NCBI GenBank assembly: GCA_947500755.1
Contig: CANMTO010000001.1
Coordinates: 62,001 to 126,000, forward strand
Length of the DNA stretch: 64,000 nucleotides
Origin: Flavobacteriales bacterium
GTDB lineage: Bacteria > Bacteroidota > Bacteroidia > Flavobacteriales_D > Crocinitomicaceae
Direction of reading: 5' to 3'
In this document: piece after piece, positions 19,387 through 46,786 of the stretch
Numbering within the stretch: position 1 is the first letter of the stretch
Layout of the letters: each line of letters opens with the position of its first letter
Notes under the pieces: model-generated
Told to the model about the DNA's origin: nothing
What the model saw: the letters and a program-made list of their open reading frames with translations, nothing else
The model's database searches: none
Program-made: the position numbers and the translations under genes

Positions 19387-21624
19387 ATGACTCAGTTACC
19401 TGGAGCATATAACGTCGAAGAAGAACGGGTCGCTATTTTATCAGCGTTTAAAGGCTTACTCCGATCGGTAAAAGACCGCTCGCGTGAAGATACAAAGTTG
19501 ATTCGAAAGGCTTTTGATATGGCCCTAGAGGCACATAAGGATGATCGACGTAAATCGGGAGAATTGTATATTTTTCATCCCATTTCTGTGGCGCGTATTT
19601 GTGCGGAAGAAATGGGACTCGATAGCATCGCCATTACCTGTGCCTTGTTGCATGATACCGTAGAAGATACCTATATATCCTTGGATGACATCGAAGATGC
19701 CTTTGGCATTAAAGTTCGTCGAATTATCGATGGCTTAACAAAAATTCCGGATGTGTTTGATGAAAATGCTTCGGTACAAGCTGAGAATTTCCGTAAGATG
19801 ATTTTAACCATTTCTGATGATTTCAGGGTGGTGCTGATTAAATTTGCGGATCGCTTGCACAACATGCGGACCTTATCCAGTATGAAACCGGATAAGCAAC
19901 TTAAAATAGCATCTGAGACCCGGTTTTTATATGCTCCGTTAGCTCATCGTTTTGGTTTTTATACCGTGAAGACAGAGCTTGAGGATTTGTCCATGAAATA
20001 TTGTGAGCCAGAAATTTTCAATGAAATTGAAACGAAGTTGAAATCCACGCAAGATGTTCGTGCGCGATTCATTCGAAGGTTTATGGCGCCGATAAAGGAG
20101 GAACTTCAAAAACAAGCTTATCAGTTCGACATTAAAGCACGAACCAAGTCGATCTCTTCGATTTGGCGGAAAATGCAAACCAAGGAAATTCCATTTGAGG
20201 AGGTTTTTGACGTGTTCGCCATTCGAATTATTGTTGAGACCTCTCAAGAGCAAGAGAAGTCTGATTGTTGGAGAATATACAGCATTGTAACAGATTTCTA
20301 TCAACCCAGTCCGGAACGATTGAGAGACTGGATTTCTACACCGCGTGCCAACGGCTATGAATCGTTGCATACCACGGTGATGTCACCTCAGGGAAAATGG
20401 GTTGAAGTTCAAATACGCTCGAAACGCATGGATGAAATTGCGGAAAAAGGACTTGCAGCACATTACAAATATAAAGAATCAAGGAACGATGAAAGTAAAT
20501 TTGATCGCTGGATTACTGAAGTACGCGATCTATTAGATAACCCCGATTCGAATGCCCTTGATTTTATCAATGAGTTTAAGTTGAATTTATTCAACGATGA
20601 AATCTATGTGTTTACCCCCAAAGGGGAGCTGCGGGTTTTGCCAACTGGTTCAACCATTTTAGATTTTGCGTACGATATTCATACGGATATTGGCGATAAA
20701 TGTATCGGTGCCAAGGTGAATAATCGCCTGATGCCCTTGAGTTATCAATTGCTCAATGGGGATCAGTTAGAAATCATAACCTCAAGCAAACAAAAACCTA
20801 ATGAGGAATGGCTCAAGTTTGTTGTTTCTGCACGCGCACGACAAAAAATAAAGTCTTCCTTAAATGAAGAACGAAATCTAATTGCGCAAGATGGGAAGGA
20901 AACCCTTGAACGAAAGTTGAAGCAATTTAACGTATTGATGAATTCTGAGAACATTACATTTTTAGAAAAATTTTATGGGCTAGGTAGTGCTACGGATTTG
21001 TACTATCGAATTGCGAAAGGAAAAATTGATGTCAATAAGATTCGCGAGATTGAAGATAAACATGGGTATTTAATTACCTCCAAGAAAGATGTGGTCGTTC
21101 TTAAAAAAGGACGTAAAAACACCGAAGAAGACAGCAGGATTGTTGATGCAAAAAAAGATGTAATTTTTATTGGCGAAGATTTTAAGGGTATTGATTATCA
21201 GATGTCTGTGTGCTGTAATCCAATCCCTGGCGATAAGGTGTTTGGCTTCATAACGATAAATCAAGGAATAAAAATCCATCGTTCGGATTGTCCAAATGCC
21301 GTTCATTTAATGTCAAAATATGCTTATCGCTGCGTTAAAGCCCTTTGGAAATCCGAAGTGTTAGTAGAACGTTTAGCGGCCATACGCATCATTGGTATCG
21401 ATCAGATTGGTTTGGTGAATCGATTGACAGAGATTATTTCAAAGGAAAACAAAGTAAATATGAAAAGCATTCACTTTGAAACCAACGACGGTACCTTTGA
21501 AGGTCGGATTCATGTCATGGTTTACGATACCGAGCATTTGGATCAATTAACACGTAAATTTCAAGAAATAGAAGGGGTTCAGCGTGTTACTCGATGGGAT
21601 TCGGAAGATGAGGCACTAATCTAG
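19387..21624 (+). CDS. rel: bifunctional (p)ppGpp synthetase/hydrolase, RelA/SpoT family
   Basis: The stringent-response enzyme of 745 residues. The N-terminal HD hydrolase domain retains HDTVEDT (89-95) and should be active. The synthetase domain follows with the substrate region RDWISTPRANGYESLHTTV and EVQIRSKRMDEIAEKGLAAH. A TGS domain is near 410 (VFTPKGELRVLPTGSTILDF), then a zinc-finger-like segment with CCNPIPGD, and a C-terminal ACT domain (about 665-735). It is probably the only long Rel protein of the organism, as in most Bacteroidota. Its last nine bases overlap the convergent ostA-like gene. Confidence 0.96.
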   Translation: MTQLPGAYNVEEERVAILSAFKGLLRSVKDRSREDTKLIRKAFDMALEAHKDDRRKSGELYIFHPISVARICAEEMGLDSIAITCALLHDTVEDTYISLDDIEDAFGIKVRRIIDGLTKIPDVFDENASVQAENFRKMILTISDDFRVVLIKFADRLHNMRTLSSMKPDKQLKIASETRFLYAPLAHRFGFYTVKTELEDLSMKYCEPEIFNEIETKLKSTQDVRARFIRRFMAPIKEELQKQAYQFDIKARTKSISSIWRKMQTKEIPFEEVFDVFAIRIIVETSQEQEKSDCWRIYSIVTDFYQPSPERLRDWISTPRANGYESLHTTVMSPQGKWVEVQIRSKRMDEIAEKGLAAHYKYKESRNDESKFDRWITEVRDLLDNPDSNALDFINEFKLNLFNDEIYVFTPKGELRVLPTGSTILDFAYDIHTDIGDKCIGAKVNNRLMPLSYQLLNGDQLEIITSSKQKPNEEWLKFVVSARARQKIKSSLNEERNLIAQDGKETLERKLKQFNVLMNSENITFLEKFYGLGSATDLYYRIAKGKIDVNKIREIEDKHGYLITSKKDVVVLKKGRKNTEEDSRIVDAKKDVIFIGEDFKGIDYQMSVCCNPIPGDKVFGFITINQGIKIHRSDCPNAVHLMSKYAYRCVKALWKSEVLVERLAAIRIIGIDQIGLVNRLTEIISKENKVNMKSIHFETNDGTFEGRIHVMVYDTEHLDQLTRKFQEIEGVQRVTRWDSEDEALI

Positions 21625-23145
21625 GGTTTTGTGTACCATAGCATACGGATTTCTTGGTCTTAGCTTGGGATTCCACGAAAAATTCCGAATATACCGCTCC
21701 TTATCATCAATTTGGTCCATGGGGAAAAACACCCCATCCGGTTTATCGAAAAATGTAATTTTTGAAACCTCACCACTGTCTAAGTAAACAATCAACTCTG
21801 AGGCATATAATCGGTTCAAGCCTTTGCGCGTTCGTGTTAAGGTGCTGTCATTTTTTTGGTCTTCTAAGGGATAGAAAATAGTCCACGCCTGACCGCTAAC
21901 TTTAGCCTTGGTAAGCACACTATCATTAAACCATGCATCAATTCGTTTCCCGGAAAGCTGGTTGAAACAGCTGCCCGTATCCACCTTCATGATTGAAGTG
22001 GCATTTCCTAATATTTGTGCTTTTTCAAGGACACTATCTGCCAGAAATACCTGAATGGAATCTCCTTTTAATTCTCCGTTTTGTGCCCAAAGTATGGGGC
22101 TCTGAAACAGGTCAATTCTCCCGATTTTACTGCTGTAGTGCGCCGAGTCACAAACCGCTTGTGCCTTCTTGGTGAATATACTAACCGCATTATACCCAAA
22201 AATGTTCCGCTCGTCGAGGCTGTCCTTTTGCATGCGTATGGTGTCGGCATGCAGAAACAATGAATCCTTTTGTTTCGTTTCAATCACCAGTGCATGACCC
22301 GCCAAGGTACTCTGAGAAACATTATTTTGCGTGTGGAAATAGTCGCCCAATAACATTAAATGCTGGTTGTTTTCATAGATTCGAACATGACCATTCCCTG
22401 TGAATAATTGATGGGTTTCCTTATACAACGCCGTGTCGCAATATATCGTCCGGTCCTTTTGCTTGATGAAAACGTTTTTCCTCAGGAGTCCTTCTTGAAT
22501 ATCAACTCGGTATTGCCCTTTTTCGCATTGAATTTCAATGCTGTCGTTTTTTATCGTGGTAGGGCCATGAAAGTAGGTGGTTTGTTTTTCATAAACATAG
22601 TGTAGGGTATCGGTGGTCATGGTTAAGTCTTCTTTCTTGTATTTAACCTTTCCGCTAAAAAAACAGGTACCAGTATTCGGGTAGAAATACCCTATTTTAC
22701 TCGTGATTACCTCTTTGTTTGTGCTGTTTTCAATTTTTCCTTGGTTTCGGTAAATGGCACGACCCGTTTTTGCATTGTATTCAAGTGAATCCGATGATAA
22801 TTTATATGCTGAGTCGCGTATTTTCACGTGGCCCCAGAGTCGAGCAAGTTTAGTACTGCCTGAATACACCATGGAATCACAATAAAGATTTACATCGTCT
22901 TTAGTGATATGCACCTTACCATAGGCGCGTACAATTTTATCTCGTTCTCGATAGTGGGCAGAATCGCAATACATGGTATTGCCTTGATAAATGAAGCTAA
23001 CGGTACCCACCAAGCGATGAGTTTGTGTGGCCTTGTTGAAATAAATTTTCTCAGAGCCTGGTAAAAGTTCCAGTTTCCCTTGCGATAACAACACATTTAA
23101 TGCGAATACAAATCCGAATAACAGGGTGAAACGCACGGGATTCAA
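21616..23145 (-). CDS. OstA-like protein (LptA-type organic solvent tolerance domain)
   Basis: A 509-residue periplasmic protein with a signal peptide (MNPVRFTLLFGFVFALNVLLS) and a long beta-repeat region: recurring units such as YCDSAHYRERDKIVRAYGKV, YCDSMVYSGSTKLARLWGHV and YCDTALYKETHQLFTGNGHV, spaced about 35-40 residues, which form the beta-jellyroll staircase of OstA/LptA domains. LptA bridges lipopolysaccharide transport between the membranes; Bacteroidota proteins of this longer type are presumed to take part in the same Lpt pathway. It lies five bases after purA and ends the fur-STAS-purA operon. Confidence 0.9.
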   Translation of the reverse strand: MNPVRFTLLFGFVFALNVLLSQGKLELLPGSEKIYFNKATQTHRLVGTVSFIYQGNTMYCDSAHYRERDKIVRAYGKVHITKDDVNLYCDSMVYSGSTKLARLWGHVKIRDSAYKLSSDSLEYNAKTGRAIYRNQGKIENSTNKEVITSKIGYFYPNTGTCFFSGKVKYKKEDLTMTTDTLHYVYEKQTTYFHGPTTIKNDSIEIQCEKGQYRVDIQEGLLRKNVFIKQKDRTIYCDTALYKETHQLFTGNGHVRIYENNQHLMLLGDYFHTQNNVSQSTLAGHALVIETKQKDSLFLHADTIRMQKDSLDERNIFGYNAVSIFTKKAQAVCDSAHYSSKIGRIDLFQSPILWAQNGELKGDSIQVFLADSVLEKAQILGNATSIMKVDTGSCFNQLSGKRIDAWFNDSVLTKAKVSGQAWTIFYPLEDQKNDSTLTRTRKGLNRLYASELIVYLDSGEVSKITFFDKPDGVFFPMDQIDDKERYIRNFSWNPKLRPRNPYAMVHKTLD

Positions 23146-25214: not shown

Positions 25215-25304
25215 CTTTTTATTTGATTCTAATTGATGAGCAAAATCGTTGATTTTTTAGAGGTTTTGAACACTTTTTCAACGCTTTTTATTTGGATTTC
25301 TATG

Positions 25305-25312
25305 TACCTTTG
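25305..25312 (+). promoter_or_regulatory. -7 promoter box (TACCTTTG) for the glycosyltransferase-ettA pair
   Basis: Exact TAnnTTTG match four bases before the ATG at 25317. This fixes the start; the frame is open to 25233, but the extra residues would lie upstream of the promoter. Confidence 0.6.
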
Positions 25313-25316
25313 CGCT

Positions 25317-26060
25317 ATGTTAAATCAAAAACGCATTTGCATCGTGCTTCCGGCGTATAATGCCGCAGAGACCCTAGAAATAACCTATAATGAGATCCCA
25401 TTTGATATTGTAGATGAAGTGGTTTTAGTGGATGATGCCAGCCGGGATCATACGTCTGAAATCGCTAAAAAGTTGGGGATTCAACACGTGATACGCCATG
25501 AACTTAATCGGGGATATGGCGGCAACCAGAAATCCTGTTACCACAAGGCTTTGGAGCTGAATGCAGATATCGTTATCATGCTTCACCCAGATTATCAATA
25601 CACCCCGAAATTGATTCATTCCATCGCTGCAATTATTGCCTTTGATGTGTATCCCATTGTGCTCGGATCAAGAATTTTGGGTAAAGGAGCGCTCAAGGGA
25701 GGCATGCCCATATACAAATACATTGCGAATCGCTTCTTAACCCTGGGGCAGAATATCCTCATGAGTCAGAAGCTCTCGGAGTACCATTCTGGATATCGTG
25801 CATTTTCCAAAGACGTGTTCTCAAAAATCGACATCGAATTGAATTCGGATGATTTTATTTTTGATAATCAAATGTTAGCACAGTTATTTTATGCCGGATA
25901 CGAAATTGGTGAAGTAACTTGTCCAACCAAGTATTTTGAAGAGGCCTCTTCCATTAATTTTTCGCGCTCCATGAAATATGGATTTGGCGTCATTGGAGTC
26001 AGTATCGGTTATCGATTAGCGAAATGGGGTCTTTATACCCCGAAAATTTACAAGAATTAA
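25317..26060 (+). CDS. family 2 glycosyltransferase, DPM1/dolichyl-phosphate-mannose-synthase-like
   Basis: A 247-residue GT-A enzyme without membrane helices. ICIVLPAYNAAETLE and VVLVDDASRDHT form the nucleotide-sugar fold, LHPDYQY supplies the metal-binding acidic motif, and YHSGYRAFSKDVF is the GYR motif of the polyprenyl-phosphate glycosyltransferase group. It would transfer a sugar from a nucleotide donor to a polyprenyl phosphate, providing substrate for GT-C enzymes such as the one at 31622-33922, though that link is inference. ettA begins 11 bases after its stop. Confidence 0.9.
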   Translation: MLNQKRICIVLPAYNAAETLEITYNEIPFDIVDEVVLVDDASRDHTSEIAKKLGIQHVIRHELNRGYGGNQKSCYHKALELNADIVIMLHPDYQYTPKLIHSIAAIIAFDVYPIVLGSRILGKGALKGGMPIYKYIANRFLTLGQNILMSQKLSEYHSGYRAFSKDVFSKIDIELNSDDFIFDNQMLAQLFYAGYEIGEVTCPTKYFEEASSINFSRSMKYGFGVIGVSIGYRLAKWGLYTPKIYKN

Positions 26061-27767: not shown

Positions 27768-28508
27768 TTAATTGCCCTTTGTATATTTCCAAACCAGGGA
27801 TTCAATCACGTTATGCTTCTTGATTTTTAAATACGCTTGAGGCGTGTGACTTACTCTTTCCTTGAAAATTACTGAATAAAAACTGCAAGCCGCGGCATAT
27901 GATCCCAATTTACTGGGGTGACTGTTGTCGGGTCTATATAAGTCTGTTATGTGATGTTTGAAGTATAACTTTTCAAATACTAAGCCCACTGGTGTAAGTA
28001 AGGCATCAAAATCCGTCGCAAGCGTTTTGTATTTTGAGGAGATCCGCCGGATCATTTTGTAATGCGTTTTGGAATATGGAAATTTCGGGTACCCCTTTTT
28101 ATAGGCCCAGGTCATAAAGAAAACCAACTTGGTGTTAGTGTTTCGTTGCTTTATACGCGTAACTATTTTATTTAACCCGGGAAGCGTTTTTTTATAATAG
28201 ATTGAGCTGTCCTTCAACATGTCTCGACTAGACCCCTGCAGTACCACGTAATCCCATTTCTTCCATCGGATTGCCCTGTAAACCTTATCTCGCAAAGAAT
28301 GTCTGTAGAACGATGTTTTTCCTTTGACGCACCAATTTACTTCCACGTGCTTTCCATTTGCCTTGGCGATTTTCATAAACATGCGTGGCATGTGATTGCG
28401 GTAGGTGTAAGAATTACCGATGAATAATATACGTATAGGCTCTTCCGCGAAGCTCAGGGACTGACCTGAAACGAAGATAAAAAGAAGAAATATAACGATG
28501 CGATTCAT
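27768..28508 (-). CDS. secreted SGNH/GDSL hydrolase
   Basis: A 246-residue periplasmic or surface protein with a signal peptide (ending SFA-EEP). Block I reads FIGNSYTYRNHM with the catalytic serine, an LQGSS segment follows, and block V is DNSHPSKLG with the Asp-His pair. Such enzymes are esterases, often acetyl-esterases on glycans. It is last in the minus-strand operon with three sulfotransferases and a TMTC-like protein (40 bases after the sulfotransferase stop). A glycan de-acetylase or transferase role is an inference from that context. Confidence 0.85.
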   Translation of the reverse strand: MNRIVIFLLFIFVSGQSLSFAEEPIRILFIGNSYTYRNHMPRMFMKIAKANGKHVEVNWCVKGKTSFYRHSLRDKVYRAIRWKKWDYVVLQGSSRDMLKDSSIYYKKTLPGLNKIVTRIKQRNTNTKLVFFMTWAYKKGYPKFPYSKTHYKMIRRISSKYKTLATDFDALLTPVGLVFEKLYFKHHITDLYRPDNSHPSKLGSYAAACSFYSVIFKERVSHTPQAYLKIKKHNVIESLVWKYTKGN

Positions 28509-28547
28509 GAGTAGGTTAACATGACTAATGTAATAAAAGTTCTAGGC

Positions 28548-29597
28548 TTATGGAGTGTATTCCTTTTTTCTTCGTCTAATGATTCGTTTTAGCTTGAGTG
28601 GTAACTGTCGATATATTCGCCATAAATACGGGCGGAATAAAAGAGCAAGTGTACGGTAGAACATCCAACTTAAGCCATCCCAAATATTGAGTTTTATTGC
28701 TGTTGAGTGGGTAGAATATCCAAGCTTTTTACTTGTTTCATTAGTTTGTTTTAGAATGACCACTTGATGTTTTTCTGACAAGGGTTTAGCAGTTTGTTGT
28801 TTTGCGCGAGGAGCTGTATCTAAAATTCCTCGGTGAAAATCGCTTATTTTTTTGATGAATTCAGGGGACAGCAGGTGCGAGCGATGCGCAATTAGTGCGC
28901 TGAATCCAGCTTGATAATCCAATTGGGTTGATTCATATGGAACATCCCAAGAGGAATTCAAGGATTTCAACGAGGCCTCCGGATTTTTTATAAACGTTTC
29001 AAAATGTAGGATTTTTGTCCGTGGAAAACGCAAAGCCTCATCGTAAGTGAGCTTCCACACATTACTCAAATAATAGGGGTGACTAAAAAAATCTATCCCG
29101 CGTCTCGCTTTTGCTTCGATGTTTTTCAATACATATCGCGTTAATATTAAGAAAGTTGCACTGGGGAATAATCGCGTAATTTCCTCCTTTTGAAAGACAT
29201 ATTTCATCTGCTTGTCTAAAATAACCTGGATGGAATCCTTGTTTTTCATGTCCCTATCGTAGAAATTCAAATAGGTCAATTTAATTAATCGATTATAGTT
29301 CAAGATCGGCGCATGGGCCAAAAGGCATTCGGCAAAACGATCTTTGTGTTCAAAATACAGGGCGGCATTCTTTTCAAAAAGGCTAAAGAAGTCATCCACA
29401 AAGGCATTGATTCGGCGTTCATTCCAATCGCTTATGTTTCCGTACTTACCCGAAAAATACAAGGCAAACGGTTCTTCCGATGCAACAATCAATGAAGAAT
29501 TCATATTCAACATGGTCGAAAGCAAGGAAGACCCTGTCCGTTCTGTACACAGTATAAAATGGATGGGTATAGAATCTAATTCGTCGCTACGCCACAT
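28548..29597 (-). CDS. sulfotransferase family protein (divergent 3'-phosphate site)
   Basis: A 349-residue cytosolic sulfotransferase fold. The PAPS 5'-phosphosulfate loop is LCTERTGSSLLSTML near 16-30. The 3'-phosphate site reads LTRYVLKNIEAKARRG, where the Arg is kept but the usual downstream serine is missing, unlike its two neighbours. The frame is open up to 29639 inside the upstream gene; the ATG at 29597, 11 bases inside the end of that gene and behind AAGAAG, is preferred. The basic C-terminus (LKRIIRRRKKEY) may lie at the membrane. The acceptor is unknown. Confidence 0.85.
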   Translation of the reverse strand: MWRSDELDSIPIHFILCTERTGSSLLSTMLNMNSSLIVASEEPFALYFSGKYGNISDWNERRINAFVDDFFSLFEKNAALYFEHKDRFAECLLAHAPILNYNRLIKLTYLNFYDRDMKNKDSIQVILDKQMKYVFQKEEITRLFPSATFLILTRYVLKNIEAKARRGIDFFSHPYYLSNVWKLTYDEALRFPRTKILHFETFIKNPEASLKSLNSSWDVPYESTQLDYQAGFSALIAHRSHLLSPEFIKKISDFHRGILDTAPRAKQQTAKPLSEKHQVVILKQTNETSKKLGYSTHSTAIKLNIWDGLSWMFYRTLALLFRPYLWRIYRQLPLKLKRIIRRRKKEYTP

Positions 29598-30639
29598 GCT
29601 TCTTACGTTTTTTGTCGATTCGGAGCACCCAACGCTCAAAATATGAAACTTTTAACTGAATAGGCAAGCGATTAAAAAAAGCATCTTTTGCTCGTTCCAT
29701 GCTTATTTTCATTGCATAAGGTGTTGCCAAAGCTTCAATCCAACATCGTTTGGCCATAGGGATTGTCAATGTAGTTTGATAGCCATAAGTGCTTCCCGTT
29801 CTCCCTGCAATGACTTCGCATACTTCAAGTTCCTGAGTTGTTAAACCTGATTTCCACGCCTCAACTGCCGCGGTATGTATGGGTTTAGACAAATCACCAA
29901 AGCGTTTTTTCATGCGGTTCGCTTGTTCGTATTGGGTTTTTACTTCGTGCTGAAATAGTGCTTGGTATGGCGCTAAGGCCTCTTGAGTTCTTATTTTTAC
30001 TGGAATTTCAAGAAAATCACACACCTTGGCTAAGGTTTGATCAGGGGCTTGCACCAGGTCTTCATAACGTACAATAAGCACTCGATTGGGATGCTGTTTT
30101 TGAAAGGAAGCAATGCGTTGTTCAAATTGAATCCAGCGTAACGAATTATAGTATGCGCTTGTGGATTTTAAGTGAACGCTATTTTTTCTAGAATTCACAT
30201 TGGCCCGATAGTCGCGCATCATCCAAATGAACTTTGTGTCTAAGCTAATGGAATGGAGTGCATCGAGGTAGTAGGAGTGAAGCGGATTCTTATTGATGAA
30301 ATGAATCGCATCTTTGGTGGGGGCGAGCTGATCCACAAAGGAACGATATGTGTGTATGATCAGTTCTTCATACGACTTGATCTCTATATTAGAGTCGAAG
30401 AACGCCTCATCAAACGTAAACCCAACATAGGGTTGTAGGATTCCAAAGGCTTTATTAAAACGCGCGGCCAATGCTAAGTCTGCCCGACTGAATTCGGTTT
30501 TATTTTTCCAAGCATGATAGAAAAAAGGAATAAAATAATTCTCCGGACCTGCCCATACTTGCGGCTGTGCATTCAACATGCTCTGCAACAAGGTGGTTCC
30601 GGAACGACCAATGCCAATGATGTGGTGGTGCTTATTCAA
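29587..30639 (-). CDS. sulfotransferase family protein
   Basis: A 350-residue sulfotransferase. The 5'-phosphosulfate loop is GIGRSGTTLLQSML (9-22) and the 3'-phosphate motif is MMRDYRANVNSRKNS with Arg and Ser in place. RYEDLVQAP, typical of the family, follows. It overlaps the upstream sulfotransferase by eight bases and the downstream one by 11, so the three are translated from one mRNA. It shares the overall layout of its neighbours (PENYFIPFFYHAWKNK compared with PEIPLFSFFYKAFRNK), pointing to local duplication. Confidence 0.9.
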   Translation of the reverse strand: MNKHHHIIGIGRSGTTLLQSMLNAQPQVWAGPENYFIPFFYHAWKNKTEFSRADLALAARFNKAFGILQPYVGFTFDEAFFDSNIEIKSYEELIIHTYRSFVDQLAPTKDAIHFINKNPLHSYYLDALHSISLDTKFIWMMRDYRANVNSRKNSVHLKSTSAYYNSLRWIQFEQRIASFQKQHPNRVLIVRYEDLVQAPDQTLAKVCDFLEIPVKIRTQEALAPYQALFQHEVKTQYEQANRMKKRFGDLSKPIHTAAVEAWKSGLTTQELEVCEVIAGRTGSTYGYQTTLTIPMAKRCWIEALATPYAMKISMERAKDAFFNRLPIQLKVSYFERWVLRIDKKRKKHVA

Positions 30640-31606
30640 GACGTTTTAATTTTAAGGACAAGGGCAGGGAAAAAATGAGTTTTTCTTTGAGATTGTAGCA
30701 TCGCACTAAGAAACGAAATTTAATGGGAATTGGCACTTGAACCCTTGTTTTACGGGAATACCCAAAGAAATCCATTTCGGTTTTACAGATGTCTTCTATC
30801 GCTTCAATGATTTCTTGATCAAGGATCTCACTCCATCTGTTTATCGCATGGGGATTAATGGGAGCGTTTAAATCACGGTACTTTTTTACTAAACGTGCTG
30901 CGTTCTGATCAATGTGCGCGGAGGGTATAGGATTAGGAGATTCAAGCGTAATACGGTGAATCCTCAAGAAATCGCAGAGTTCATCCACGTGTTGCTGCGG
31001 ATTTAATGCAAAATCCTCATAGCGAAGTAAATGAATTTGATGCGGGAATTGATCCTTGAGCTTGTTATAATATCGGTTATAGCCGCGCCAACGGAGTATA
31101 TTTATCCTCCAGTGATTTGTTCTTCCATGAATTAGATTTTGACTTTGCATTCGAGAAGCTACATTCGCACGTGGATCACGCACCAAAAAAATCGCCTTAG
31201 TTTGTGGGTATTCTTTAAGAAAATGATGTACATGCAAGGTGTTTACTGGATTCTTATCGATAATCCACTCAGGACCTTGAGTGTTCTTTTTTGATTCAGA
31301 TTCGGTGGTGAATAAGGTCGAAAGTTCGTTCATGAAGCTGAAATAGTCTAATCCACTTGGAATCTTTGCTACTTCTTCAGTTTGTATCTGCCATGGATGA
31401 CCTGGATGCCTTCGCTTCATGGAGTTTATATAGCGTACAACCAGGTAATTTCTTTCTGAATTAGACCATTTGTTTCGAAATGCCTTATAAAAAAATGAGA
31501 ACAACGGAATTTCAGGATTGTCTAAGCAATCGGGATGGCTTCCCAGTGTTTTGGAAAGTATAGTCGACCCAGACCGCCCGATTCCTATAATGAATAATCG
31601 ATTCAA
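30632..31606 (-). CDS. sulfotransferase family protein
   Basis: A 324-residue sulfotransferase with 5'-loop GIGRSGSTILSKTL (8-21), 3'-phosphate motif LVRDPRANVASRMQS and RYEDFALNP. It is the most canonical of the three paralogues. It begins 15 bases after the stop of the TMTC-like gene and overlaps the next sulfotransferase at its end. A PAPS supply (ATP sulfurylase, APS kinase) is not encoded in this window. Confidence 0.9.
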   Translation of the reverse strand: MNRLFIIGIGRSGSTILSKTLGSHPDCLDNPEIPLFSFFYKAFRNKWSNSERNYLVVRYINSMKRRHPGHPWQIQTEEVAKIPSGLDYFSFMNELSTLFTTESESKKNTQGPEWIIDKNPVNTLHVHHFLKEYPQTKAIFLVRDPRANVASRMQSQNLIHGRTNHWRINILRWRGYNRYYNKLKDQFPHQIHLLRYEDFALNPQQHVDELCDFLRIHRITLESPNPIPSAHIDQNAARLVKKYRDLNAPINPHAINRWSEILDQEIIEAIEDICKTEMDFFGYSRKTRVQVPIPIKFRFLVRCYNLKEKLIFSLPLSLKLKRLE

Positions 31607-31621
31607 GTTATTTAATGTAAA

Positions 31622-33922
31622 CTATTGATTATTAATTTTTTGAATGTATAAATTAAGGCGATTTACTTCACTCCTTGCTTCGGTAGAATTTATTTTTTTC
31701 AATGCGTCAATTCCTCGCTTGAAGGCACGAATAGCCAGGTCTTTTTCACCTAGATTTACATAGGAGTTTCCAATTTGTACAAAGTCTTTGGCCTTACCTT
31801 TTCCGGATTTGATTTGATGTCTGTGGATTGCTATAATTGCTTCATATTGAAGGGTATTCATGAGGTAGGTATCCGTGAGTTCCTCCACCTTGGATTCAGG
31901 GAATTTCCGTTCGATTGCTGCCTTTGTTGCAATGATTTCATGGATTAAGGAATCTGAAATTACTGTAAATCGACTTGGTGCTAGGAAGTGGCCAACCAGT
32001 TGTTTACGGAAATCATCTACGATGTTATAACTCGCTTTTTTTCCAGTGTATAGCTCCATTAATCGTTGTCTTACTTCTGTTGCATAAGGGGGGGTCATGT
32101 GGGCTAAATCCATGTTCCATGTGGTTTGTCCTGAAGCAAAGGCGCTAAGTTGATTAATCGACGTTGGATTTAATCCATCGGCTAAAAACATTTTTCCCCG
32201 TTCTTCGAATTGACTGAGTAAGCCTAACATGCTTAAACTTGAGAGGGAATCAAGTGAGTGAATTGGTCGATTGTTAAGTGATTTATCGGTTATGAAGGCT
32301 TCGTTTCGTTTCCATACAATATAGATTCTCAGCAGAGAAACTAAGCGGTTTTTCCACGCTTCTTGGTAATCGGGTTGTTTCTTGGTAAGTGCCTTAAGTA
32401 GGGATAGTGCTGCACGCTCATCACACCGGAAGGAAGATTCCAGGGTGGCCAGGTTGTTTTGGATTTTGTAATAATCAGGATAGGTGTGGAGCGCGTTTTC
32501 GTAGGCTTTTTTGGCCATATTCACGCTGCTGTAAATCGCTTCTTGATTTTCTAACTGCACATCGTTCCAAGACTGATTAATTTGGTACTGTAATTCTTGT
32601 CCAAGCAATGCGTGAACCTTAGCAGATTTTGTAGTGGAGCTATCGGCTTCATACAGACTCAGGCGGTCGCTCCATGCGTTGTTTCGAATGAACACCATAC
32701 TTAAACTGTAAACGCTGAATGCGATGAAAAGTAGGGGGGCAATTTTTTCTTTGATTGTTGTGCATTGATTCAGTAGAAAGACGATGGTAATGCATAGACC
32801 GAGACTTGCCGTAAATGCCAAGCGTTCCCCCACAATACCCACCATAGGAAAGATCAAGTTACATGCGCCAACGATGGCTAAAAAGAAAAATACCAATCCG
32901 AAACTCAGTTCGGTATGCATCTTTTTTATAAAGGCCCAAAGAATAAACCCTAAGGTAAATAACAGAACCATTCCGATGGCAAAGGTTTTAAAGGTAAAGG
33001 CTGATGAAACGGTAAGGGAACCTAAGCCATAATAGCATTGCAGATCCAGCGGTAAAATGCTTTGTTTAACATACCAAATCACGGAGTCAAAGAATAGGGG
33101 GATACGCTGAAAGAAGCTGTATTCAAACGCCGGATTTTCAACGATGGAAAATTCACGAATCTTTTCGGTTTCAATTAAGCCCTTTTTTAATAATCCAAAG
33201 AGGATCCGTGCTCCGAGCAACGATACGGATATAAAAGCAACGGATTTCCATGAAAAGGATCGAAAATACACGAGGGTAATGGGGATGATCGCCAACATGG
33301 GCATGGCAGTTTTTTTACTCAATAAGGCTAAGAGTAAATTCATCAAGGTAAAGAGGAGCCATTTCCATTTCCGTGAATCTACAAAGCACAGTGCGGAACG
33401 CAGTGCCAACACGGAGAAAAGCATGCTGAGCAATTCATCGCGATTTTTTAAGCTGTTAACGACCTCACTGTGAATGGGTAAGCTGAGAAAAAGCAGGGTA
33501 ATGACAAGGGCGACCAGGTGCTTGGAAGGACCAAATAAGGTATTCAGGGTGCTGAATAAAACAATCCCGAGTAAGGCATATAAAAGCAATTGAATGAAAT
33601 GGGATATATGAACCCATGCGTCGGAGCTTCCGAATACGCTTTTTTCAATGGCAAATGACGTTAAGACTAGTGGACGATACTCGTAATTTTGCTCCTCATT
33701 GGAGGCATAGGCAGAAGTGAAAATTTTTGGAATTCCCGCAATTCCTTTCGAGACTAAAGGGTGTTCTTGTCGATCCGTACACGTAACTAATTCGTCATCT
33801 AAGGCGAAGGTGTTTTTAATCGTATTACCATAAAACAGAAACACCCATAAAATGAGTAATGGATAAATAAAACGCCTGGGTAAGGTGAAAACTCTACCAA
33901 AGAAAGGGAATTCAAACTGCAC
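31622..33922 (-). CDS. GT-C fold membrane glycosyltransferase-like protein with TPR tail (TMTC-like)
   Basis: A 766-residue polytopic protein. About 10-11 membrane helices fill residues 15-410; the first periplasmic loop has the acidic motif FALDDE and then EYRPLVLTSFAIE, as in TMTC-type O-mannosyltransferases and other GT-C enzymes. Residues about 430-766 are soluble helices with TPR-like repeats (AKKAYENALHTYPDYYKIQN, IGNSYVNLGEKDLAIRAFKRG). It probably transfers a sugar from a polyprenyl-phosphate donor to a surface acceptor. The GTG start at 33922 is set by a TACCTTTG box four bases upstream. It heads the operon with the sulfotransferases. Confidence 0.75.
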   Translation of the reverse strand: MQFEFPFFGRVFTLPRRFIYPLLILWVFLFYGNTIKNTFALDDELVTCTDRQEHPLVSKGIAGIPKIFTSAYASNEEQNYEYRPLVLTSFAIEKSVFGSSDAWVHISHFIQLLLYALLGIVLFSTLNTLFGPSKHLVALVITLLFLSLPIHSEVVNSLKNRDELLSMLFSVLALRSALCFVDSRKWKWLLFTLMNLLLALLSKKTAMPMLAIIPITLVYFRSFSWKSVAFISVSLLGARILFGLLKKGLIETEKIREFSIVENPAFEYSFFQRIPLFFDSVIWYVKQSILPLDLQCYYGLGSLTVSSAFTFKTFAIGMVLLFTLGFILWAFIKKMHTELSFGLVFFFLAIVGACNLIFPMVGIVGERLAFTASLGLCITIVFLLNQCTTIKEKIAPLLFIAFSVYSLSMVFIRNNAWSDRLSLYEADSSTTKSAKVHALLGQELQYQINQSWNDVQLENQEAIYSSVNMAKKAYENALHTYPDYYKIQNNLATLESSFRCDERAALSLLKALTKKQPDYQEAWKNRLVSLLRIYIVWKRNEAFITDKSLNNRPIHSLDSLSSLSMLGLLSQFEERGKMFLADGLNPTSINQLSAFASGQTTWNMDLAHMTPPYATEVRQRLMELYTGKKASYNIVDDFRKQLVGHFLAPSRFTVISDSLIHEIIATKAAIERKFPESKVEELTDTYLMNTLQYEAIIAIHRHQIKSGKGKAKDFVQIGNSYVNLGEKDLAIRAFKRGIDALKKINSTEARSEVNRLNLYIQKINNQ

Positions 33923-33926
33923 AACT

Positions 33927-33934
33927 CAAAGGTA
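33927..33934 (-). promoter_or_regulatory. -7 promoter box (TACCTTTG) for the sulfotransferase operon
   Basis: Exact TAnnTTTG match on the minus strand, followed by AGTT and the GTG start of the TMTC-like gene. Predicts a leaderless mRNA beginning with GTG. Confidence 0.6.
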
Positions 33935-33944
33935 GTATTTTAAT

Positions 33945-33973
33945 CAAAAAAAAATCCCGGTTTCCCGGGATTT
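33945..33973 (-). terminator. Rho-independent terminator of the Spy-like gene
   Basis: A nine-base stem (33952-33960 with 33965-33973, AAATCCCGG and its complement) with loop TTTC; on the minus strand it is followed by a T-run (A-run 33946-33954). It is three bases past the stop and separates this gene from the sulfotransferase operon promoter just downstream. Confidence 0.88.
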
Positions 33974-34339: not shown

Positions 34340-34439
34340 GGCATTAATTTTTTTAAAAGTACGCATAACATGGGTTCAAAGATGCCTCTAGGTGTTAAAT
34401 TTAGTCAATTTCAAGTTCGTTGTTTCTTTTCCCTTTGCG

Positions 34440-34447
34440 TATCTTCG
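34440..34447 (+). promoter_or_regulatory. -7 promoter box (TATCTTCG) with -33 TTG for the acetyltransferase operon
   Basis: One mismatch from TAnnTTTG, four bases before the ATG at 34452. A TTG at 34420-34422 lies 17 bases upstream, which is within the described 17-23 base spacing to a -33 element. Confidence 0.5.
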
Positions 34448-34451
34448 CACT

Positions 34452-35345
34452 ATGGCCTTAAATTGGAAATCCCTAGTCCCCACATTTTTAAAGGAGATAT
34501 TCCATTCCCTTAAGCGAAAAAAACGACAAGCTGCGTTGCTTAATCAGCAACAATCAGGGCAGGGGTTGACGAAAGAAGAATTAAAAGAATCACTTCTAAA
34601 TGCCGGTATACTTCCGGGTGATCACCTTATGGTGCACGCCAGCTTAAGCAAGATGGGATTTATCGAAGGGGGCGCCGACACGGTAGTTGAAGTGCTAAAG
34701 GAGTGCGTTGGTGCAGAAGGATTGATTCTAATGCCAACTTCTCCCATAGCGCGCTTGCAATTAGATTATGTGTTTACCAATCCCTTGTTTGATGTCTTGC
34801 TTTGCCCTTCGGCGATGGGGAAAATATCTGAAGTTTTCCGAACTTCGGATGGCGTCATTAGGAGCTATCATCCCACGGAGCCGGTAGCGGCTTGGGGCGC
34901 GCAAGCGTACGATTATATTAAGGACCATACCGCAAAAAACACCCCGTACCACTGGGATTCACCCTATGGTAAACTGATTCAACACGGTGGAAAAATTTTA
35001 TACATCGGCGTTACCCTCGACAATGCAGGCACGCATTTACACACCCTAGAAGATGCCTTGGACCTTGGGGTTCCGGTTTATTATCCAGAAGAATTTAAGC
35101 TCCCAGTGCGTGACTATGAAGGGAACGAAATGATCGTTGCCACCAAAGTTCATAATCCGGAATACTCAAAAAAACGTCGCTGCGATGAATTACTTCCCAT
35201 GTTTTTGCGTGAAGAGGTTTATCGTGAAGTGTATATTGGAACGGCTAAAACATTGGTGTTTGATGCTAAAAAAATGTTTGATGTGATGGTGACCGCCTTC
35301 ACCGATCGGGGGGTAACCATGTATAATCCTGAAGGAAACAAATGA
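34452..35345 (+). CDS. AAC(3)-family N-acetyltransferase
   Basis: A 297-residue protein of the antibiotic acetyltransferase fold: LLNAGILPGDHLMVHASLSKMGFIEGGADTVVEVL, LILMPTSP, YHPTEPVAAWG (with the catalytic-type His) and DNAGTHLHTLED. The family is named for aminoglycoside 3-N-acetyltransferases but many chromosomal members acetylate amino sugars in glycan or antibiotic pathways. As first gene of an operon with a deacetylase, a FemAB/GNAT protein and an SDR, a glycan role is more likely than resistance. The ATG at 34452 is set by the promoter box; the next gene overlaps by four bases. Confidence 0.88.
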   Translation: MALNWKSLVPTFLKEIFHSLKRKKRQAALLNQQQSGQGLTKEELKESLLNAGILPGDHLMVHASLSKMGFIEGGADTVVEVLKECVGAEGLILMPTSPIARLQLDYVFTNPLFDVLLCPSAMGKISEVFRTSDGVIRSYHPTEPVAAWGAQAYDYIKDHTAKNTPYHWDSPYGKLIQHGGKILYIGVTLDNAGTHLHTLEDALDLGVPVYYPEEFKLPVRDYEGNEMIVATKVHNPEYSKKRRCDELLPMFLREEVYREVYIGTAKTLVFDAKKMFDVMVTAFTDRGVTMYNPEGNK

Positions 35346-36313
35346 AGATAGCCATTACATGGGATTATGAGCTGTTTTTTGGCGAACGCAGCGGATCGGT
35401 GGAGCAATGCATGATCGAACCTACGGATCGGTTGTTATTGCTCGCCGCTAAATACAAGATTCCATTTACCTTTTTTCCCGACGCTGGGTGTTTAATCAAG
35501 TTTGAGGAACAAGCAGCTTGTCATCAAGCGCTTCAAGCGATTAAAAATCAAATTCAGGTATGGGATACCAAGGGGCATGAAACGGGCTTGCACATTCATC
35601 CACATTGGGAAAAGTCCAGTTGGAATGGTCAGCAATGGGAACATGATTTATCCTTCTATAAATTATCAGATTTTTCGGCTGAAGATGCCTCAGATATAGT
35701 TGATCGCTATGCAACCTATATGAATTCCTTACTTTCCCAACCGATGCAAAGTTATCGGGCAGGAGGTTGGTGTGCGCAACCTTTTACTCCCGTAGCAGAG
35801 GCCATGAAAAATGCAGGGATTCACCTTGATTCTTCGGTATTTAAAGGAGGAAAGAACACCACTAAACCGTATCAGTATGATTTTACGGGAACACCGGATT
35901 TATCGCAATGGAAATTCACGGAAGACCCTGCCGTTTTGCATGCAGAGGGTGTTTTTACCGAATTACCGATAGCCTCGATGAATTACTCGCCCTTGTTTTT
36001 CTGGAAACTCTTTGTGCTTGGTCGCCTCAATCCTAGTCAACATAAGCCCATAGGGAATGGACTTCCTGCAAAAGGTGGGGGATCGAAAAAAGAGTTACTC
36101 ATGCGCACGCACCGCTTGTGTGTCAGTGCAGATGGATATTTTTCAACCCAACTGAATCGCGCCTTGCGAAGGGCAAAGCAAGCCAACGAACCATTCCTCG
36201 TGGTGATCGGTCATCCCAAGGCCTTAACACCGTTTGGCTTGAAAACCTTGGAAGCCTTTATCGCTAAACATCGTGAAGATCATGAATTTGTAACACTTTC
36301 CTCGGTCCTATGA
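35342..36313 (+). CDS. NodB-type polysaccharide deacetylase-like protein
   Basis: A 323-residue protein with the CE4 barrel pattern: TWDYELFFG at the first strand carries the acidic residue, FTFFPDAG follows, GLHIHPHWE (about 79-87) supplies the metal histidines, and SYRAGGWC is the RAGG-type motif. CE4 enzymes remove N- or O-acetyl groups from polymers. No signal peptide is seen, so it would act in the cytoplasm on an intermediate. It overlaps the acetyltransferase gene by ATGA and the next gene by four bases. Confidence 0.85.
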   Translation: MKIAITWDYELFFGERSGSVEQCMIEPTDRLLLLAAKYKIPFTFFPDAGCLIKFEEQAACHQALQAIKNQIQVWDTKGHETGLHIHPHWEKSSWNGQQWEHDLSFYKLSDFSAEDASDIVDRYATYMNSLLSQPMQSYRAGGWCAQPFTPVAEAMKNAGIHLDSSVFKGGKNTTKPYQYDFTGTPDLSQWKFTEDPAVLHAEGVFTELPIASMNYSPLFFWKLFVLGRLNPSQHKPIGNGLPAKGGGSKKELLMRTHRLCVSADGYFSTQLNRALRRAKQANEPFLVVIGHPKALTPFGLKTLEAFIAKHREDHEFVTLSSVL

Positions 36314-37200
36314 TTGTAGCCAATGCACAACTCGATAAACAGCGTTGGGATCAGAGAGTCCTAGCGGAACAACCTGAAGGCTTCTTTTTCTTGTTGAGTT
36401 GGTATTTGGATTCGGTAGCACCGGGTTGGGAAGGCTACGTGCTTGGTGATTATGACGGCATTTATCCCATTGTGCCCCAGCAAAAGTTTGGGGTGAGTTA
36501 TACGCATATGCCGTTTCTTATACGAAGTTTTATTCCGATTGGGTTTGATGATCAACAATCTGCGACTCTTCGTCAATACCTTTCGAAACGTTTCTCCTAT
36601 CTGCAGTTGGCAGGTGTATCATTGGATGAGCCTTATCAACAGCAAATCCGAACACATCAAGTGCTTGATTTAACAAGTTTCGAGCGGTCTCAATGTTCTG
36701 AGAACCACCGCAGGCAGTATAAAAAAGCAACCCAACAAGGGTTTGAAATGGATACTTCGGTAAATCCAGCGGGTTTAATTGCTCTATTTCGTCGGATGAA
36801 AGGGGCGGAATTTACCCATTTGAAAGATGCTGATTATCTACTGTTAGCGCGTTTGATGGAAGAAGCAAACCGTCGCGGATATTTAAGGCAGTTTTCCTTG
36901 TGGAATCAAGGGGAGCTGGTCGGAGCTGCTGCGTACTTGGAAGTGAACGGAAAGGTACTGTATTTAAAAGGAGCCATTACTCCGGAAGCCATGAAAACAG
37001 GAGGGATGGTGTATTTGCATGTGGAGGCTATGATGACCTTAGCGCCTTCCTGTTCCCAACTTGATTTTGGTGGCAGCAATGCCAAAGGGCTTGGAGAATT
37101 TAATCGAAAATTTGGTGCAAGGGATGTAGAATACCTACTTTTGATTAAGAATTCGCTAGCGAAGCCGTTGGCTTGGTTAGCAAAACGTAAATTCGGTTAA
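36310..37200 (+). CDS. GNAT/FemAB-like acyltransferase
   Basis: A 296-residue protein with the double-GNAT style of FemAB relatives: WYLDSVAPGWEGYVLGDYDGIYPIVP in the first half, ENHRRQYKKATQQGFE in the middle (the RR-x-x-KKA region of these families) and VGAAAYLEVNGKVLYLKGA, LDFGGSNAKGLGEFNRKFGA at the end. Family members transfer an aminoacyl or acyl group to an amine, for example on a glycan. It overlaps both operon neighbours (ATGA upstream, TAATG downstream). Confidence 0.82.
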   Translation: MIVANAQLDKQRWDQRVLAEQPEGFFFLLSWYLDSVAPGWEGYVLGDYDGIYPIVPQQKFGVSYTHMPFLIRSFIPIGFDDQQSATLRQYLSKRFSYLQLAGVSLDEPYQQQIRTHQVLDLTSFERSQCSENHRRQYKKATQQGFEMDTSVNPAGLIALFRRMKGAEFTHLKDADYLLLARLMEEANRRGYLRQFSLWNQGELVGAAAYLEVNGKVLYLKGAITPEAMKTGGMVYLHVEAMMTLAPSCSQLDFGGSNAKGLGEFNRKFGARDVEYLLLIKNSLAKPLAWLAKRKFG

Positions 37201-37913
37201 TGACAAAATCAGTATTAATTACAGGAGCAAGTGGCGGTATAGGAATGCGCCTTGCAAAAGCAATGATATCGAAGGGGTATCGTGTGGTCCTTCACGGTAA
37301 CCAACACATGGAGGCCATTTCTGAGTTGGGTGGACTATTTCCTGAACAGATTACTGCGGTAGCTGCTGATATTTCAACGGAAACGGGCATTAGTCAACTT
37401 ACCCAAGCTGCAGGGGACTGTGATGTTGTATTGCATTGTGCAGGAATCCCAAGTGCAGGTATTTCTTGGAAGATAAGCACAGAGGAATTCCGAAACGTGA
37501 ATGCTATTAATTACGAAGCGCCGTTTTTCATATCTCAGCAGCTTATTCCTTCAATGCGAAGCAAGGGGTGGGGTAGAATTGTCTTCTTTTCTTCGATCGT
37601 AGCCCAAACCGGCATACCTGGAACAGCGGCGTATTCGGCATCGAAAAGTGCCTTGTTTGGTTTAACCCGAACGATGGCCTCGGAGTTGGCAGCTAATAAC
37701 ATTACCGTGAATTGCATCGCGCCCGGATACATGGACGTAGGCATGATCCGCGAAATACCAGCGGCTGTGCGCGAACAGATCATTGCAAGAACGCCCATAG
37801 CGAAACTCAGCGACACCGGGGGAATTATTAAGATGGTAGAACTGCTTCTTTCCGAGGAGTCCAATTCTATTACCGGACAGGTGCTATCTGTGAACGGCGG
37901 CTTGTGGATGTAG
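37200..37913 (+). CDS. short-chain dehydrogenase/reductase, FabG-like
   Basis: A 237-residue NAD(P)-dependent SDR with TGASGGIG (8-15), CAGIP (NAG equivalent), the catalytic serine in VFFSSIVAQ, the YSASK active-site pair and the C-terminal LSVNGGLWM usual for FabG-like proteins. It could reduce a beta-ketoacyl chain or a sugar intermediate feeding the acyltransferases of the same operon. It is the last gene; its ATG shares a base with the preceding stop (TAATG). Confidence 0.9.
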   Translation: MTKSVLITGASGGIGMRLAKAMISKGYRVVLHGNQHMEAISELGGLFPEQITAVAADISTETGISQLTQAAGDCDVVLHCAGIPSAGISWKISTEEFRNVNAINYEAPFFISQQLIPSMRSKGWGRIVFFSSIVAQTGIPGTAAYSASKSALFGLTRTMASELAANNITVNCIAPGYMDVGMIREIPAAVREQIIARTPIAKLSDTGGIIKMVELLLSEESNSITGQVLSVNGGLWM

Positions 37914-46777: not shown

Positions 46778-46786
46778 TGTATAAAT

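Follow-up and report, generated by a model that had tools for sequence, protein, structure and literature searches.

We analysed a window of 64,000 nucleotides from a Flavobacteriales bacterium of the Crocinitomicaceae (assembly GCA_947500755.1, contig CANMTO010000001.1, positions 62,001 to 126,000 of the forward strand). Our subject is a minus-strand, head-to-tail run of five genes at 27768-33922, which encodes a membrane glycosyltransferase of the GT-C class with a TPR tail (the head protein), three sulfotransferases (ST1, ST2 and ST3) and an SGNH hydrolase-like protein. We propose that this operon builds a sulfated glycan and attaches it to an exported acceptor, a reading whose chances we put at about even. 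The parts list and the argument from the sulfate donor, 3'-phosphoadenosine 5'-phosphosulfate (PAPS), are firm: the operon is real and, for the GT-C protein plus the sulfotransferases, it is conserved in the genus.

An earlier, sequence-only reading of this DNA had seen no PAPS-making genes in the window and had pointed to the rest of the genome as the place to look. They are indeed found there, with CysD and CysN on contig C4 and a single CysC, the adenosine 5'-phosphosulfate (APS) kinase, on contig C13. A SulP permease is encoded on contig C39, and a CysQ-like phosphatase on contig C26 scores 211.6 bits, a strong match that falls under the curated cut-off of 228.8. In the same genome, which is 98.9% complete, CysH was not found, the sole PAPS_reduct match being CysD, and a search for sulfite reductase gave no NIR_SIR match. 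PAPS is therefore made without a visible use besides sulfation. A search of the genome for Sulfotransfer_3, the one sulfotransferase family covered, matched ST1-ST3 only. The economical reading of this gene content would be that sulfate activation serves sulfation and not cysteine synthesis, and supply of the donor for sulfation alone, as it seems to be here, is unusual in this phylum. Among the genus genomes listed, CysH-type matches, as judged by match lengths, occur in G005, G052 and G081 only.

The head protein and the sulfotransferases also go together across the genus. We compared 85 genomes (G000-G084), taken to represent the genus, and scored as head-positive those with a match at E about 1e-31 or better; 10 genomes with weak head matches were scored head-negative, weak APS-kinase matches in G008, G010 and G078 were disregarded, and genomes absent from the match listings were scored negative. 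APS kinase is present in 29/33 genomes with a strong head match versus 18/52 without the head (Fisher p = 1.4e-6), and a strong Sulfotransfer_3 match in 32/33 versus 18/52 (p = 2.6e-9), p values that both ignore shared ancestry. Where neither head nor sulfotransferase occurs, APS kinase is found in 1/27 genomes, and 12 of the 50 genomes with a strong sulfotransferase match have no APS kinase.

Gene order strengthens this association. A sulfotransferase gene lies within two same-strand genes after the head gene for 24/28 genus head genes with a visible neighbour, versus 6/236 other genes of those loci (Fisher p = 1.5e-24, nominal as the loci are related). Ten named loci (L076-L085) and L122 were removed as duplicates of other loci before this count and before the ketoacyl-synthase and large-gene counts given below. 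The expectation that all five genes form a conserved set was thus upheld in one part, the adjacency of GT-C and sulfotransferase genes. Genus head loci differ in having one, two or three sulfotransferases, and the SGNH gene was encountered with the closest species only, no SGNH label being seen outside the closest loci. In 17 loci the upstream neighbours are shared, namely a DUF4890 gene and the divergent genes described below. Other genus members carry the head and sulfotransferase genes at different chromosomal places, so that this pair either moved as a unit or was retained in different surroundings.

The head protein and its relatives

On its motifs and predicted fold, the head gene product is a GT-C glycosyltransferase. 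Pfam gave sub-threshold matches alone, to PMT_2 (25.5 bits, cut-off 26.1) and TPR; the NCBIfam scan found no equivalog for any of the five operon proteins, and an assignment of the head protein to TIGR03663 was rejected at 17.4 bits against a cut-off of 126. An AlphaFold2 model built from 33 sequences (mean pLDDT 84.1, pTM 0.82) has membrane-part helices at residues 16-416 and tail helices at 434-766. Foldseek alone placed TPR proteins at the top and PglB at rank 50, and the best 60 rows of a PDB profile search with the head alignment were TPR proteins and other TPR-bearing chains. When VIA-align 2 was used to realign Foldseek's 1000 best chains to the model, the top rows were STT3 (Z 20.8), AglB, PglB, Pmt4 (18.9), Pmt1-Pmt2 and ArnT (16.9), with Z scores of 16.5-20.8 over ~310-350 residues within model residues 1-481. 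Both the model and these PDB matches agree with the sequence-only reading of a GT-C enzyme with a TPR tail. So does the GT-C acidic loop on which that reading hinged: the acidic pair D42-D43 of the first periplasmic loop is invariant in 33/33 aligned sequences, as are Y82-R83-P84, R161-D162-E163, K203, E262-N263-P264 and E366-R367.

The closest parallel to this pattern lies in TMTC1-4, O-mannosyltransferases of the PMT clan. In these enzymes the first luminal loop of the GT-C domain carries DD, YRP comes next, the loop that joins transmembrane helices TM9 and TM10 holds an ER pair, and a TPR tail follows (PMC7801869). Most of the invariant head columns share the order and loops of the TMTC motifs, with D42-D43, Y82-R83-P84 and E366-R367 followed by the helical tail, and they correspond to M1, part of M2 and part of M7 (PMC7801869). 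In contrast, the SHKS part of M2, KE of M4, DW of M5 and PxxP of M6 are not preserved in TMTC form, the head protein has no Pfam match to DUF1736 at E 0.1, and the sequences are otherwise remote. One head relative, from L116, reaches 18.1 bits for DUF1736, under the cut-off of 27. From the helix count of the model and the analogy with TMTCs, the TPR tail is predicted to be periplasmic.

A pairwise search, which may miss paralogues, found a head-protein match in 54/150 relatives, weak ones counted. In a tree of 116 head-type proteins the genus forms one group (SH-like approximate likelihood ratio support 100), apart from the shorter paralogues outside it. The head gene of G054 is split into frames of 133 and 625 aa (L043:8531-10408 and the preceding frame), and it is split too in L079, another record of this locus.

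The neighbours of head-type genes point to glycan building. A pair of ketoacyl synthase III (KASIII) genes occurs in 8/9 head loci of the order's other families, mostly followed by genes for a short-chain dehydrogenase/reductase (SDR), a family 2 glycosyltransferase (GT2) and a GNAT acyltransferase; outside the genus as a whole, a ketoacyl-synthase pair accompanies 25/77 head loci. At L066 the head, the ketoacyl-synthase cluster and three sulfotransferases are joined in one run. The genome studied here carries the identical six-gene order, KASIII - ACP-like - KASIII - SDR - GT2 - GNAT, at C13:44076-48590, where the 81-aa open reading frame (ORF) resembling acyl carrier protein (ACP) has no Pfam match. 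By analogy, we infer that the head GT-C protein would act in the making of a glycan that contains an N-acylated amino sugar. The O-antigen of Flavobacterium psychrophilum has an amino sugar whose dihydroxyhexanoyl group is proposed to come from two ketoacyl synthases working with an ACP, a reductase and a PglD-like acyltransferase (PMC6519341). The C13 cluster resembles those wfp genes in its two KASIII, ACP-like ORF, SDR, GT2 and GNAT genes (PMC6519341), but the glycan is a different one, and the cluster is linked to the head GT-C gene in other families and unlinked in this genome. On C13 (L188:6077-13648), the KASIII/GNAT cluster is divergent from a 124-aa gene and an 867-aa CHU_C gene.

A second set of neighbours consists of large genes, some of which encode exported proteins. 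For head-type genes outside the genus, one of the next two same-strand genes encodes 950 aa or more in 20/86 cases versus 20/704 controls. Four of these 20 cases were scanned (L086, L087, L091 and L096), and 4/4 carry a CHU_C signal for the type IX secretion system (T9SS) together with PKD/Ig-like domains. The link to T9SS-exported proteins drawn in the sequence-only reading is therefore suggested by the neighbourhoods of relatives; it is indirect, and for the window's own head protein it is circumstantial. As CHU_C genes are common, their co-location alone (23/77) was not counted as proof, and we relied on the large-gene count with its in-locus controls. Small ORFs between head paralogues and large genes were also set aside, as they are not one family and 3/8 (L087, L091, L114) match mutually. 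At L086, L087, L091, L096, L099, L103, L110, L114, L121 and other loci, the gene right after a shorter GT-C/TPR paralogue is a giant one, the longest encoding 3027 aa. Next after the head-sulfotransferase unit of L047 comes a subtilase that bears a T9SS tail.

The same head protein could instead serve a sulfated glycolipid or lipopolysaccharide (LPS), in which an ArnT-like GT-C enzyme adds a sugar, in the periplasm, to lipid A or another lipid and the sulfotransferases modify the lipid-linked sugar or the LPS core. We consider this unlikely. It can draw on ArnT among the structural matches (Z 16.9), on an LptA/LptC-like, LPS-export-type gene near the operon (21616-23145) and on the resemblance of the C13 cluster to Flavobacterium O-antigen acyl-sugar genes (PMC6519341). 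However, the D42-D43/YRP/ER pattern is that of TMTC and PMT enzymes, and relatives of the head protein precede genes for large exported proteins. ArnT-type enzymes are also not known to carry a TPR tail, which counts further against an LPS role.

The three sulfotransferases

Pfam bears out the three adjacent sulfotransferases, with Sulfotransfer_3 matches (cut-off 27) of 100.8 bits for ST1, 106.1 for ST2 and 38.4 for ST3. Enzymes of this type bind the 5'- and 3'-phosphates of PAPS through two motifs, and both are intact in ST1 (5' GRSGST, 3' RDPRANVASR) and in ST2 (5' GRSGTT, 3' RDYRANVNSR). ST3 retains a 5' motif, ERTGSS, but its 3' motif is degenerate in this species, where it reads RYVLKNIEAK, and in its closest relatives, whereas ST3 relatives at L041, L042, L045, L047, L052, L053, L054 and L060 have RDVRDNIVSK. 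The ST3 model (pLDDT 85.1) keeps the overall fold and matches the tyrosylprotein sulfotransferase TPST best, along with CurM. In a tree of 65 sulfotransferases, ST3 falls in a separate clade (17 rows, support 100/100) that spans the genus and takes in a sequence from a different family within the order; the place of ST3 at the end of the series is therefore old.

No signal peptide was seen by eye in ST1-ST3, and the 5'-PAPS loop begins within the first 20 residues. At the other end, ST1 finishes in the tail LPLSLKLKR and ST2 in LPIQLK plus a basic tail. A C-terminal hydrophobic-basic stretch of this LPxxLK type occurs in 38/53 operon sulfotransferases versus 5/39 comparison sulfotransferases, for a pattern chosen after inspection of the alignment and among related rows. 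Of the comparison set, 7/39 themselves belong to head operons or sulfotransferase triads (L179, L181, L184) and provide 4 of the 5 matches, leaving 1/32 in the remainder. The simplest reading is that the tail would associate with the membrane.

An identification of ST1-ST3 with NoeE was rejected, the best NoeE-like NCBIfam match being 33.8 bits against a cut-off of 500. A scan of viral contigs with ST1 gave no relative, and therefore nothing suggests a phage origin. Directly downstream of ST3 at L053 (9978-10751), on the opposite strand, lies an aspartyl/asparaginyl beta-hydroxylase-like gene, and genes of the same length occur at L052 and L054.

These enzymes could also act on protein directly. 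Under such a scheme, which we find improbable, they would sulfate tyrosines of exported proteins or peptides in the manner of TPST or RaxST, and the GT-C enzyme would glycosylate the same proteins independently. The nearest solved relatives of ST2 by sequence are in fact the CurM sulfotransferase and TPST1/2, and TPST is the best match to the ST3 model. Yet Sulfotransfer_3 is a broad family, with weak NoeE-like matches here too, no small substrate-peptide gene was seen in the operon, and three divergent sulfotransferases beside a glycosyltransferase would better suit several sugar positions. A sulfated capsule or exopolysaccharide, with the sulfotransferases decorating the polymer and the GT-C enzyme adding a periplasmic side branch, is slightly less probable still: bacterial sulfated capsules with biosynthetic clusters are known (PMC11641403, PMC11766843), but neither the operon nor the scanned neighbours yielded polymerase or polymer-export genes; one genus locus (L059) has a flippase-like gene.

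Operon layout and flanking genes

The coordinates of the operon and its upstream signals are collected in the table. ORF positions, a common strand and the protein families all agree with the five-gene operon of the sequence-only reading, and the coordinates confirm its overlaps of 8 bp (ST1/ST2) and 11 bp (ST2/ST3); the gaps are 15 bp after the head gene and 39 bp before the SGNH gene. For ST3, the ORF tool also permits an alternative TTG start at 29639. The GC content of the operon genes is 39-42%, versus 40% across the window.

Features of the operon and its upstream region, in the order of transcription except for the last two rows
Feature	Coordinates	Strand	Start	Description
Head gene	31622-33922	-	GTG	766 aa; GT-C (PMT/TMTC-class) membrane glycosyltransferase, C-terminal TPR tail
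ST1	30632-31606	-	TTG	324 aa; Sulfotransfer_3
ST2	29587-30639	-	TTG	350 aa; Sulfotransfer_3
ST3	28548-29597	-	ATG	349 aa; divergent Sulfotransfer_3, own clade
SGNH gene	27768-28508	-	ATG	246 aa; SGNH/GDSL hydrolase-like DUF4886 protein; last gene
TACCTTTG box	33927-33934	-		5 bases ahead of the head-gene GTG; resembles a Bacteroidota -7 element
Terminator-like hairpin	about 33946-33971	-		ATCCCGG GAAA CCGGGAT + T run; between the upstream DUF4890 gene and the operon

The upper limit had earlier been set at 33934, which does not coincide with a start codon: the reading frame opens with the GTG at 33922, and 33934 is the edge of the TACCTTTG box. This box, a putative -7 element of the Bacteroidota type, is kept together with the terminator-like hairpin in 5/6 compared upstream regions, the window's own included. 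As a candidate -7 element, it would mean a very short leader or none.

The last gene product matches DUF4886 at 65.1 bits (cut-off 26.7) and Lipase_GDSL_2 at 32.6, marginally under the cut-off of 32.9. It has a signal-peptide-like stretch at its N-terminus, block I as GNS at residues 31-33, and block V as DNSH (D194, with H three residues on). The complete set of head, ST1, ST2, ST3 and SGNH genes is found in the three closest loci that extend far enough (L036, L037 and L039); L038 stops after ST2. A second DUF4886-like protein of this genome, a sub-cut-off match of 410 aa with PKD-type repeats, is encoded on C4 (L189:11780-13012), ~6 kb from the CysDN genes.

Several sugar-related genes surround the operon. 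Divergent from it, at 34392-37913 (+), are four genes that are kept beside the head gene in genus loci and encode an AAC(3)-like acetyltransferase, a weak polysaccharide-deacetylase-like protein, a protein with an Acetyltransf_6 match and an SDR. The AAC(3)-like protein falls far under all NCBIfam AAC(3) cut-offs, and the role of the cluster is probably sugar modification instead of drug resistance. A GT2 gene at 25233-26060 (+), 1.7 kb from the operon end, is retained beside the operon in many genus loci; its product is akin to polyprenyl-phosphate sugar synthases (AglJ and PpgS matches, both sub-cut-off) and is a possible donor-sugar supplier for the head protein. Further away, 43949-49765 (-) holds a tandem of an IgGFc-binding/PKD/CHU_C protein and a GH92 family glycosidase.

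A model for the operon and its place among known systems

The model that we favour, a sulfated glycan attached to an exported acceptor, would run as follows. The SulP permease would take up sulfate, which CysDN and CysC would convert to PAPS. ST1-ST3 would sit at the inner face of the cytoplasmic membrane, a placement suggested because they lack a signal peptide and have a common hydrophobic-basic C-terminal tail, and each would sulfate a different position of a polyprenyl-linked glycan, the CysQ-like phosphatase recycling the 3'-phosphoadenosine 5'-phosphate. The C13 cluster of ketoacyl synthases, ACP, reductase, GT2 and acyltransferase may provide an N-acylated amino sugar for this glycan. 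After flipping, the GT-C head protein would pass the sugar or glycan to an exported acceptor, which the periplasmic TPR tail may help to select; the likeliest acceptors would be T9SS-exported surface proteins with Ig/PKD-like repeats. In the nearest species only, the secreted SGNH protein might trim the product or add an ester.

A number of observations weigh against this model. ST3 may be inactive or altered, because most ST3 relatives have an Asp and a Ser in the 3'-phosphate motif that are missing here. The head protein has no Pfam match to DUF1736, this genome has the head operon and the C13 cluster at unlinked places, and it is mostly shorter paralogues from outside the order that supply the large-gene neighbours. 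Within the genus, the head occurs without APS kinase in G030, G034, G041 and G052, and G030 (99% complete) carries head and sulfotransferases with no APS kinase or CysD match; conversely, APS kinase is present in 18 genomes that show no strong head match, most of them with other sulfotransferases. Lastly, a 389-aa gene takes the usual sulfotransferase place at L056-L058 (G003, G066, G081), a GT2 in the scanned copy L057; in these three genomes the sulfotransferases are on contigs other than the head's.

A bolder version of the sulfated-glycan model is correspondingly more doubtful. It holds that the TMTC-like GT-C/TPR class of Bacteroidota glycosylates the Ig/PKD repeats of T9SS-exported adhesins, much as TMTCs act on cadherins, and that in this genus the glycan is multiply sulfated and PAPS is kept for sulfation alone. 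If true, this would be the phylum's first sulfated O-glycan and would offer a candidate for the missing oligosaccharyltransferase (OTase) or ligase.

Haloarchaea and animals are known to link sulfated glycans to proteins. The literature searched contained no description of such a glycan made by a Bacteroidota cell. A search by title and abstract, with most subscription journals outside its reach, also found no published description of the operon, which argues weakly for its being new. The closest analogue in function is Halobacterium salinarum, in which VNG1056C and VNG1057C, one membrane-associated and one soluble, sulfate two sugars of an N-glycan transferred by AglB; it has in common with our operon dedicated sulfotransferases, a GT-C oligosaccharyltransferase and surface proteins (PMC11980604). 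That system is archaeal and N-linked, whereas here three Sulfotransfer_3 enzymes share one operon with a TMTC-like GT-C protein in a Gram-negative bacterium. AglB is not known to have a TPR tail. As to the organism itself, names of metagenome-assembled genome records and PMC9878933, whose available text makes no mention of this genome, suggest lakes as the habitat of the genus.

Closer in phylogeny is the general O-glycosylation of Bacteroidota, whose core flippase, OTase and ligase have reportedly yet to be discovered (PMC12871550); no word starting with 'sulf' occurs in the available text of that review. It concerns exported proteins of the same phylum, and a GT-C enzyme could fill the OTase or ligase vacancy. 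The head family is found in part of the relatives only, however, so the head protein is unlikely to be a universal OTase.

For the biology of this genus, the genome would make a clean test bed: labelled sulfate should end mainly in sulfated products, because PAPS is made and neither a PAPS reductase nor a sulfite reductase was found in it. For the phylum, the GT-C family stands as a definite candidate for transfer steps that are reported to have no known enzyme (PMC12871550).

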